This document shows, piece by piece, positions 1,672 to 17,773 of a DNA stretch of 64,000 bases. The DNA is taken from positions 124,001 to 188,000 of the forward strand of contig NZ_JAPDPD010000008.1 in the NCBI RefSeq assembly GCF_026283965.1. The letters are read 5' to 3'. Source of the stretch: Dyella subtropica. GTDB taxonomy: Bacteria > Pseudomonadota > Gammaproteobacteria > Xanthomonadales > Rhodanobacteraceae. The notes beneath the pieces are model-generated. The model was not told where the DNA came from and did not search any database. It was given only the letters and a program-made list of their open reading frames with translations. The first letter of the stretch is position 1; every line of letters begins with the position of its first letter. The position numbers were made by a program, and so were the translations under genes.

Positions 1672-1866
1672 GGGATGCTCTGAGCCCGTCTACGCAGCCG
1701 TCATGATGTGTGGGAGGTTCGCAGGGTGTGGCGCACGGCGACGGCAAGGCTGGCTGCCTTGGCTAGACGTGGGCCGCAGCCTGCGGGCCTCCCACACATC
1801 ACCCTGTCATCCAAATTCAAAATGTCAGAGCCGGTGACGGCTGCGTAGACGGGCTCAGAACATCCC
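1672..1866. repeat. Nested palindromic element, copy 1 (GGGATGCTCTGA family)
   Basis: Outer arms at 1672-1703 and 1835-1866 are 32-base inverted repeats with a single mismatch (GGGATGCTCTGAGCCC... versus GGGATGTTCTGAGCCC...). Directly inside the left arm, 1704-1732 pairs with 1773-1801 (29 bases, 4 mismatches), and an AAGGC/GCCTT stem sits in the centre. The right side carries about 33 extra bases (1802-1834), so the structure is asymmetric. With flanking promoter sequence it fills the gap between the CPBP gene and the TerC gene. The terminal 13 bases match copies 2 and 3; the rest of the arm differs. Confidence 0.85.
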
Positions 1867-3487: not shown

Positions 3488-3564
3488 AGGGATGCTCTGA
3501 TCTATTCAACGCAGACGTCTCCGCAGTGTCAGCTCGCCTACGTTGAATAGATCAGAGCATCCCT
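3488..3564. repeat. Nested palindromic element, copy 2 (minimal form)
   Basis: A perfect 24-base inverted repeat: AGGGATGCTCTGATCTATTC plus AACG at 3488-3511, and its complement at 3541-3564. Two further mismatched pairs extend the arms inward. The short interior contains GTGTCAGCTCGCC, which is also found inside copy 3. The element starts four bases after the TerC stop codon and ends 16 bases before the ATG of the methyltransferase gene. Confidence 0.88.
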
Positions 3565-15707: not shown

Positions 15708-16943
15708 ATGTCGTTGCTTGCGCCCCTGCGGGAACTCGACTCCACCCAACGCCACACCGTGCTGGCGAGCTTTCTCGGCTGGACGTTGGATGCGTTCGAT
15801 TACTTCCTGCTCACGTTCGTGATCGTGGCCGTGTCGAAGGAATTCGGCGCGGACAAGAGCGAGGTGATCTACGGCCTGTTTCTCACCTTGGCGGCGAGGC
15901 CGCTGGGCGCGTTGCTGTTTGGACGTCTGGCCGACCGCTACGGCCGCCGCCCGATCCTGATGTTGGACGTGATTCTGTTCTCGCTGTTCGAACTGGCAAC
16001 CGCGTTCGCGCCTTCGCTCAGCGTGTTTCTGGTGCTGCGTTTTCTGTTCGGCGTGGCGATGGGCGGCGAGTGGGGGCTGGGTGCGTCGCTGGCGATGGAG
16101 TCGATTCCGCCGAAGGCGCGCGGCCTGGTTTCCGGCTTGTTGCAGAGCGGCTACCCCTGCGGCTTCTTCCTCGGCGCGCTGGTCAACTGGCTGTTGGTCG
16201 ACCATATCGGTTGGCGCGGCTTGTTCATCGTGGGCGCCTTGCCGGCGCTGCTGGTGATCTATATCCGTCGCAGCGTGCCGGAGTCGCCGGTTTGGCAGGC
16301 CGGACAGGCAGAGCGCAAGAAGCGCGGCCTGTTCGAGGAAATGCGCGGGCACTGGAAGCTGGCGATCTACCTGACCCTGCTGATGGCCGCCTTCAACATG
16401 TTCAGCCACGGCTCGCAGGATCTGTACCACACCTTCGAGGAAGTGAATCTGCATCTGCCCAGCGGTTCGGGCGCGGCTTTCGTGCTGGTCGCCATGCTCA
16501 ACCTGGGAGCGATGGTGGGCGGCCTGTTCTTCGGTTCGCTGTCCGAGCGGATCGGCCGGCGCCGGGCCATGATGACCGCCGCGTTGCTGGCCATTCCGGT
16601 GATCCCGCTATGGATGTATGGCGGCTCCATGCTGTGGCTCGCCGTCGGCGCGTTTCTGATCCAGGTGATGGTGCAGGGCGCCTGGGGCGTGGTGCCCACC
16701 CACCTCAACGAGCTTTCGCCGGACGCCGTGCGTGGCACCCTGCCGGGCGTGGCCTATCAGCTGGGCAACCTGCTGGCGGCCTATACGGCCAATGCGCAGA
16801 ACCTGATCGCCTCCTGGCGTGGCGGCGACCTGGCCTTCGCCATGAGTACCTGGATCGCCGGCATCGCGTTGCTGCTGGCTTTGCTGGTCTGGCTGGGGCC
16901 GGAGGCGCGCGGGGTGGGCTTCGGGAAGCCCGGGGCCGAGTGA
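15708..16943 (+). CDS. MFS transporter of the metabolite:H+ symporter type
   Basis: 411 residues, 12 predicted membrane segments. The MFS signature between TM2 and TM3 is GRLADRYGRRPILM, and it is repeated in the second half as GSLSERIGRRRAMM. The first helix SFLGWTLDAFDYFLL with its acidic pair and the GGEWGLGASL motif in TM5 are typical of the sialate/lactate/shikimate-like metabolite:H+ symporters (NanT, YjhB, JEN1 relatives). A monocarboxylate or sugar acid substrate is likely but unproven. The stop lies six bases before palindromic element copy 3. Confidence 0.85.
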   Translation: MSLLAPLRELDSTQRHTVLASFLGWTLDAFDYFLLTFVIVAVSKEFGADKSEVIYGLFLTLAARPLGALLFGRLADRYGRRPILMLDVILFSLFELATAFAPSLSVFLVLRFLFGVAMGGEWGLGASLAMESIPPKARGLVSGLLQSGYPCGFFLGALVNWLLVDHIGWRGLFIVGALPALLVIYIRRSVPESPVWQAGQAERKKRGLFEEMRGHWKLAIYLTLLMAAFNMFSHGSQDLYHTFEEVNLHLPSGSGAAFVLVAMLNLGAMVGGLFFGSLSERIGRRRAMMTAALLAIPVIPLWMYGGSMLWLAVGAFLIQVMVQGAWGVVPTHLNELSPDAVRGTLPGVAYQLGNLLAAYTANAQNLIASWRGGDLAFAMSTWIAGIALLLALLVWLGPEARGVGFGKPGAE

Positions 16944-16948
16944 CCATT

Positions 16949-17238
16949 AGGGATGCTCTGATCGATTCAACGTAGGCGTCACCGCTGTGTCAGCTCGCCT
17001 GTGGCCCGGGCGCCACCTCGACAGACAGCCAAGTCTGCCTTCGCCGACGCCCGGGCCACAGGCGAGCTGACACGGCGGCCCCCACATGTGGATGCTAAAA
17101 GACGGGGTGATGCCCAGAAGGCTCGCGGTGCGTGTGGCGCGGCTTGCCAAGGCGGCCAGCCTTCCCTGCGCCACGCAACACGCGCCGCGAGCCTTCTGGG
17201 CATCATGCCGCCTGCGTTGAATCGATCAGAGCATCCCT
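16949..17238. repeat. Composite nested palindromic element, copy 3
   Basis: Outer arms are a perfect 24-base inverted repeat (AGGGATGCTCTGATCGATTC plus AACG at 16949-16972; complement at 17215-17238). Inside are two further large hairpins in tandem: 16987-17012 with 17048-17073, a perfect 26-bp stem, and 17109-17135 with 17178-17204, 27 bp with one mismatch. The first inner stem begins with GTGTCAGCTCGCC, the core also seen in copy 2. No protein-like reading frame crosses it. It fills nearly all of the gap between the MFS gene and slyD. Confidence 0.9.
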
Positions 17239-17287
17239 AAGGCGTGCTGTTAGAATCTCCGCTTTGTACACATCACGAGACAGGCAA

Positions 17288-17773
17288 ATGAAGGCTGGCA
17301 AGGACAAGGTCATCTCGCTGCACTACACCCTCACGGTGGACGGCGAGAAGGTAGAGAGCTCGCTCGATCGCAACGAGCCGCTTTGGGTGCTGCTGGGCCA
17401 TGGCCAGCTGATTCCTGGCCTGGAGAAGGCGCTGGAAGACCACGGCGAGGGTGAGAACCTGCAGGTGGACGTGTCACCAGCCGAAGGCTATGGCGAGCGC
17501 CAGGAAGGTATGGTCCAGCGCGTGCCGAAGAAGTACTTCCAGCAGGCCGCCAAGCTCAAGCCGGGCATGACCACGGTGCTGGCGCTGAAGGAGGGCGGTC
17601 ACCGCGTGGTGGTGGTGCACAAGGTCGGCATGTCCACCGTTGACGTGGATCTGAACCACCCGATGGCCGGCAAGTCGCTGAAGTTCGACGTGACCATCAA
17701 CGAAGTACGCGACGGCACCGAGGAAGAGATCCAGCACGGCCACGCGCATCCGCCGGGTGCCGAAGCGCACTGA
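17288..17773 (+). CDS. slyD: SlyD-type FKBP peptidyl-prolyl isomerase
   Basis: 161 residues. FKBP half-domain one (YTLTVDGEKVESS), a chaperone insert-in-flap domain (about 70-125, AEGYGERQEGMVQRVP) and the returning FKBP strand (HPMAGKSLKFDVTI). It is a cytoplasmic prolyl isomerase, chaperone and nickel or metal carrier. The tail is short but ends in a His-containing EEIQHGHAHPPGAEAH, a reduced version of the long E. coli metal-binding tail. A TAGAAT hexamer 31 bases upstream of the ATG is a likely -10; its -35 would fall inside the palindromic element. Confidence 0.93.
   Translation: MKAGKDKVISLHYTLTVDGEKVESSLDRNEPLWVLLGHGQLIPGLEKALEDHGEGENLQVDVSPAEGYGERQEGMVQRVPKKYFQQAAKLKPGMTTVLALKEGGHRVVVVHKVGMSTVDVDLNHPMAGKSLKFDVTINEVRDGTEEEIQHGHAHPPGAEAH

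Follow-up and report, generated by a model that had tools for sequence, protein, structure and literature searches.

Our analysis revealed that a long palindromic element in the genome of Dyella subtropica is, judged by its letters, a non-autonomous miniature inverted-repeat transposable element (MITE) of the IS5 type and not an element of the REP/REPIN-RAYT kind. This assignment follows from ends that match those of an IS5-family IS together with 4-bp duplications in its relatives. The best explanation overall, which we consider very probable, is that such a MITE was moved by a related IS and carries two hairpins that may serve as strand-specific folds. The element lies in a stretch of 64,000 nucleotides that was analysed as a whole (the window), between the end of a gene at 16943, which we read as MFS-type, and the start of another at 17288, which we read as FKBP-type. 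The coordinates of its parts, and of two further forms of the element in the window, are given in Table 1.

Table 1. Parts and further forms of the palindromic element in the window.
Feature	Position	Strand	Remarks
Complete element, HP1-first orientation	16951..17236	+	286 bp without the flanking 4-mers
Left flanking 4-mer TTAG	16947..16950		
Right flanking 4-mer CTAA	17237..17240		
Left terminal inverted repeat arm	16951..16981	+	
Right terminal inverted repeat arm	17206..17236	-	
Hairpin 1 (HP1)	16982..17078	+	tip inverted relative to most copies read
Linker between HP1 and HP2	17079..17099	+	C-run/G-run makes a short stem with the start of HP2
Hairpin 2 (HP2)	17100..17213	-	by its arms and covariance-model score
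Short form of the element	3490..3562	+	73 bp, between CCAG and CTAG
Divergent copy that lost HP1	1673..1865	-	module match at 1709-1797

The terminal repeat enclosing two long hairpins that had originally been predicted is real, with the predicted arms of 24, 26 and 27 bp being slightly too short. The terminal arms (16947-16972 and 17215-17240) pair perfectly over 26 bp and are 94% complementary over 35 bp, those of HP1 (16982-17012 and 17048-17078) extend over 31 bp at 97%, and those of HP2 (17100-17143 and 17170-17213) over 44 bp at 86%. Folded as DNA, the 305-nt element region reached -142 kcal/mol against a mean of -64.7 for shuffled sequences (z = -20), and none of 100 shuffles folded as well. 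The HP2 module of this copy scored 74.5 bits on the minus strand and 47.9 on the plus strand; the tip of HP1 is inverted here (16985-17074), so that both hairpin tips are read on the minus strand. Among the open reading frames of the window none spans the whole element, as had been stated from the start, and the frame at 17132-17773 that overlaps its right part only lengthens the FKBP-like gene downstream, in the same frame. Rfam searches of positions 16700-17500 (801 bases) gave no match above the gathering score; of the 14 matches below it, 13 were to microRNA families and one to VA RNA. An attC-like reading of the motifs ATTCAAC/GTTGAAT in the ends was dropped; other subfamilies do not keep these motifs.

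Copies of the element are dispersed over the genome and the family. Allowing up to three mismatches, the 26-mer end matched 37 times in the own genome and its reversed control not once. Many of these matches lie at contig ends, and four of them fall in the window against a shuffle mean of 0. Seven stretches, in records from Dyella sp. AtDHG13, Dyella sp. ASV24 and Rhodanobacter sp. B05, contain a 23-mer of the end without mismatch, and an exact 19-mer pattern occurs in 23 of 147 genomes of the family. With the whole element as query, at least 70 genomes matched among the 398 of the order (58 within the family and 12 outside), a lower bound because two candidates were scored per genome. In the plasmid collection the subfamily query L294 retrieved one record of Xanthomonas sacchari, while the subfamily queries L333, L339, L342 and L214 matched nothing there; L294 had no match in the phage collection. 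Shrunken forms of 57-90 bp chiefly retain the ends.

Some copies carry additional palindromes. In six, HP1 contains one of about 40 bp (L060, L071 and L072 in the own genome, L202 and L203 in genome G103, L238 in G439; compare L119), and in a seventh (L225, G103) HP1 encloses the repeat AGTAGGCTGGGATG, which has the look of a GTAG-type REP. Capture of hairpins, through which the element had been proposed to grow, does therefore occur; since both main hairpins recur throughout the subfamilies read, it is not the origin of the basic shape in each copy. A repeat similar to AGTAGGCTGGGATG adjoins L204 and occurs frequently in both G103 and G415. A piece closely resembling the extra palindrome was seen in G040, within an unrelated repeat that lies between the two genes enclosing the window element.

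That the element is mobile and non-autonomous, as had also been proposed, is supported by its many copies, by empty orthologous sites and by ends held in common with an autonomous IS. The flanks of the window locus match in all six genomes of the genus, the own included, and the five others lack the element at this locus: 53, 50 and 70 bp stand in its place in G068, G019 and G081, and 202 and 213 bp of another repeat in G053 and G040. The window copy itself shows no direct repeat, since its flanks TTAG and CTAA are inverted and not identical. Among 85 distinct copies, identical palindromic 4-mers on both sides (CTAG or TTAA) were found in 28, a direct repeat only in one, an inverted one only in two (the window copy being one of them) and neither in 54; for the listed copies of G103 and G124 identical palindromic flanks occurred in 13 of 16. 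Counted by single ends, CTAG adjoins 58 of 170 and TTAA 22 of 170. CTAG is scarce in the window, with 26 occurrences against 214 expected from composition. Furthermore, we joined the flanks of 11 copies (G103, G124) without the element and sought them in sister genomes. Out of 20 comparisons that aligned, 18 span the join; four of these (L206/L247, L211/L281, L211/L282 and L205/L280, the last of which keeps a single TTAA) have a single 4-mer slot and, within 15 bases, no more than one gap of 1 nt, and gaps at the join are larger in the remaining 14. These empty sites fit a 4-bp duplication.

A side observation concerns the neighbouring genes. We called 52 gene ends that face a copy with a simple ORF caller; in 14 of them the flanking 4-mer supplies the stop codon (C-TAG or T-TAA), and insertion at such a site leaves the gene intact. 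We claim no enrichment, because 3 of 42 CTAG/TTAA sites in the window are stops anyway.

Ends matching the element were found at transposase loci of the genome G017. L127 is an IS of 1196 bp with GGATGCTCTGA at both ends, which read GGATGCTCTGAACAATTAG and GGATGCTCTGATTTATTCC, the latter close to the MITE end. Its transposase, open over 287 residues, matched NCBIfam IS5_4 at 2.7e-92 as well as Pfam PF01609 and DUF772, and both MITE ends resemble the IS end that adjoins the transposase start. Three relatives of L127 (L345, L346 and L347) have matching ends and perfect TTAG/TTAG or CTAA/CTAA duplications, and the scan of IS loci gave a candidate end pair in 15 of 30. Transposase relatives of L127 (E up to 1e-20) occur in 35 of the 147 family genomes and in none of the six genomes of the own genus, the own included; PF01609 was detected in five of nine genomes and is absent from the own genome, G068, G103 and G124. 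Neither a Y1 nor an IS5 transposase was detected in the own genome, and no mover was found there. The target duplication of IS5 elements has been described as YTAR (PMC10359306). In summary, the element has no transposase gene, is short, ends in inverted repeats and occurs in dispersed copies with empty orthologous sites; a 4-bp YTAR duplication is seen in the 28 perfect copies and in the four single-slot empty sites, and the ends match those of L127 and its three relatives. Mobilisation in trans by the transposase of a related IS is most likely. The IS copies read use TTAG, CTAA and CTAG, and the 28 MITE copies with identical palindromic flanks use CTAG or TTAA only, none of them having TTAG/TTAG or CTAA/CTAA.

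Two other kinds of mover were weighed. The element could be REP/REPIN-like and moved by a RAYT, a Y1 tyrosine transposase; a linked RAYT or other Y1 transposase was indeed what the original prediction had suggested looking for. Its long extragenic palindromes and two inverted hairpins recall REPINs, and a search of 16 genomes gave Y1_Tnp matches in 10, including G103 and G124. However, Y1_Tnp is absent from the own genome (G000) and from the carriers G123 and G133, and when 60 transposase loci were scanned for ends, none of the 30 Y1 loci among them had GGATGCTCTGA at both sides. Common in G103 and G415 is a repeat separate from the element, GTAGGCTGGG, which looks like a REP of the GTAG class. 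Moreover, flanks and empty sites show a target duplication, whereas REP, BIME or REPIN elements with RAYTs are not known to make one, and a 4-bp duplication fits DDE and not Y1 chemistry. This explanation is thus largely refuted and highly improbable. We also give hardly any credence to a MITE of the IS630/Tc1-mariner type that, like the Correia elements, would duplicate a TA inside CTAG or TTAA. TA is present at both ends of many copies, but in 28 copies the base adjoining it tracks the outer base, so that a 4-bp unit is needed, and PF13358 (DDE_3) was found in none of nine genomes, the own included, whereas a matching IS5 was found.

The hairpins have changed in sequence but not in shape, and this suggests some function. 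In the 59 distinct copies of full length, two or more Watson-Crick types occur at 66 of the 89 consensus pairs and three or more at 40, and within the module of a single hairpin both positions have changed in 33 of 36 pairs. These counts are inflated by the kinship of the copies, as related copies are not independent. The module alignment comprised 47 sequences, in which HP1 and HP2 alike were oriented so that the loop reads TGG, and L212 by its tip. Here 95.2% of cells were paired against 64.9% after shuffling, a value that none of 500 shuffles reached, and sliding the pairing partner abolished the covariation signal. Where the 18-bp ends of these 59 copies deviate from the consensus, both arms carry the same change in 53 cases, and in 16 cases they do not. 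Arm-to-arm correction occurs, and it could yield covariation without selection.

A strand preference can be read from wobble pairs. When one side of a G-C pair in a duplex palindrome is lost, the result is G-T on one strand and A-C on the other, and without strand preference the two are expected equally often. We counted such events on a tree built from the 59 copies, using parsimony. With the structure taken from the plus strand, gains of G-T and A-C were 54 and 14 in HP1, 12 and 24 in HP2, and 21 and 18 in the terminal stem; with that from the minus strand they were 35 and 16, 11 and 59, and 16 and 14, respectively. A structure predicted from one strand leans to the wobbles of that strand, which is controlled for by the 74 pairs common to both. 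On these pairs HP1 and HP2 keep their opposite bias, with 33 G-T to 13 A-C (p 0.0045) and 9 to 24 (p 0.014), and the terminal stem has 15 to 12. Among 113 hairpins oriented by their tips and aligned regardless of strand, the 98 near standard ends gave 226 G-T and 54 A-C and the 15 others 43 and 8, where the unit is cells and not events and fixed internal-loop cells are included. Given opposite biases in HP1 and HP2 and none in the ends, the hairpins, and not the ends, look like strand-specific folds that point in opposite ways.

These observations might have other causes. The hairpins of a plain IS5 MITE could be functionless, with their covariation arising only from template-switch correction between the palindrome arms. 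The shared changes in both arms of the terminal stem, which has no strand preference, speak for this, as do short forms without hairpins (L079, L046) that are still flanked by CTAG/CTAG or TTAA/TTAA. However, correction gives no cause for G-T over A-C on opposite strands in HP1 and HP2, nor for a tip loop that is kept across families with other ends, and we regard this explanation as a serious but rather doubtful one. That the strand preference stems from hairpins of single-stranded DNA to which a protein binds, for instance the transposase or a replication factor, and not from RNA, appears unlikely to us. G-T is the better-tolerated mismatch in DNA too, and the conserved TGG loop resembles a protein site, but no protein candidate emerged and the terminal stem, the presumed transposase site, is without preference.

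Under the favoured explanation of an IS5-type MITE, the transposase of a related IS would recognise the ends, GGATGCTCTGATCTATTC; the ends, flanks and empty sites are directly visible, and transposition itself is inferred. Insertion would take place at a rare 4-bp target, mostly CTAG or TTAA, with duplication of the target, and two long hairpins would be carried along between the ends in inverted orientation. With less certainty, each hairpin may be a strand-specific folded molecule, most likely RNA in a transcript that enters from the neighbouring gene. A transcript coming from either side would first meet the hairpin whose wobble pairs suit it and would rarely reach the second one, so that transcripts arriving from both directions would be folded, processed or ended by the pair. 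Insertions near genes would thus be less harmful, which may help the element to persist. Because a scan of positions 16850-17350 gave no promoter-like or terminator-like site, the role as RNA is to be taken as presumptive.

The hairpin core recurs within quite different terminal repeats, as far as other gammaproteobacterial families. Subfamilies with the same core have the ends GGCGACGCTGATCAAGTATC (L245, with L242 and L246 one or two bases off), GGGTGCGCTGAACAAGTTATC (L297) and GGAGGGTCTGATCAAGTAGC (L301), a member from another family of the order, L291, has CTAGGGCGTGTCACCC, and the own genome also holds a core type with the ends GAGCCTGTTCAA. L360, with IS5-type ends GGAGGGTCTGAACAAGTC between CTAG and CTAG, resembles L301 in its ends; the likeness of the IS5-type L370 (GGCAACGCTGAATAAGTC) to L242 is less sure, its second end and flanks being imperfect. 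A covariance model of the hairpin (R1), with both strands counted and 150 candidates scored per genome, matched 100 times in the own genome and 90 times in G103, and 5, 3 and 16 times in three genomes of that other family of the order. In G019, one species of the genus, the module had no match, and the element family therefore seems dispensable. Within the class, where only 11 candidates were scored per genome, R1 matched at 1e-5 in at least six of 369 genomes, the own included. Seven of the nine module matches in the five other class genomes were read: six have a CTGGnnG tip and the seventh TGG with another closing pair. At least five of these seven, one of which is cut by a contig end, show the two-hairpin layout with unrelated ends in folds read by eye. 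We tentatively propose, as a possibility that falls short of an even chance, that the hairpin pair is a mobile structured nucleic-acid module whose ends were exchanged among IS5-type specificities and which would act on transcripts from either side. In such a module the hairpin would be strand-specific, with TGG in its loop and an internal loop that is asymmetric; it would mostly occur as an inverted pair and would have been carried across Gammaproteobacteria.

Bacterial MITEs are usually viewed as deletion leftovers of an IS. In several subfamilies described here the core matches and the ends do not, so that a part not serving transposition can be better conserved. This makes it testable whether non-autonomous elements carry structure that renders insertions tolerable. 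The model R1 provides a means of finding the family, and the wobble bias per strand a way to ask whether a genomic palindrome is read single-stranded. The strong covariation of the hairpin stems, their opposite wobble preference and the occurrence of the module within different ends are new here.

In the literature searched, mainly outside subscription journals, there was no description of this element or of a named family with these ends, in agreement with the original prediction, which knew of none, and no work linking MITEs to Rhodanobacter. An IS5-type MITE is a known kind of element; the strand-biased conserved hairpin pair and the exchange of ends are not described in the literature searched. 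The IS copies L127, L345, L346 and L347 resemble the element in ends, 4-bp YTAR target and host family, and differ in their length of 1153-1196 bp, the presence of a transposase and the lack of a hairpin core. Correia elements differ from it in their ends and also in their target. They and other bacterial MITEs are, like the present element, dispersed and extragenic with terminal repeats and structured transcripts, and Correia RNA is cut by RNase III; an inverted, covarying hairpin pair with a common tip motif is not mentioned in the accessible part of a review (PMC10969869). REP, BIME and REPIN elements, according to the accessible parts of their descriptions, likewise are extragenic palindromes in inverted pairs, but they consist of units of 20-40 bp and depend on a Y1 transposase, which is absent from the own genome (PMC3733652, PMC2817692, PMC3116915). 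Closest in mechanism is MITEPsy1 of Pseudomonas syringae, which the accessible portion of its description presents as a probable IS5-type MITE that inserts at CTAG or YTAA with duplication of 4 nt, is attributed to ISPsy2 and has been observed to transpose (PMC3189936). Its end, GGAAGGTCTGAAAAAGCC, is of the same kind as that of the Dyella element (GG....TCTGA) and differs in sequence; it measures 100 nt with ends of 18 nt, and the same portion of text does not mention long internal hairpins (PMC3189936). It is this precedent, together with the IS5-like ends and the YTAR duplication, from which we place the Dyella element among the IS5 MITEs.
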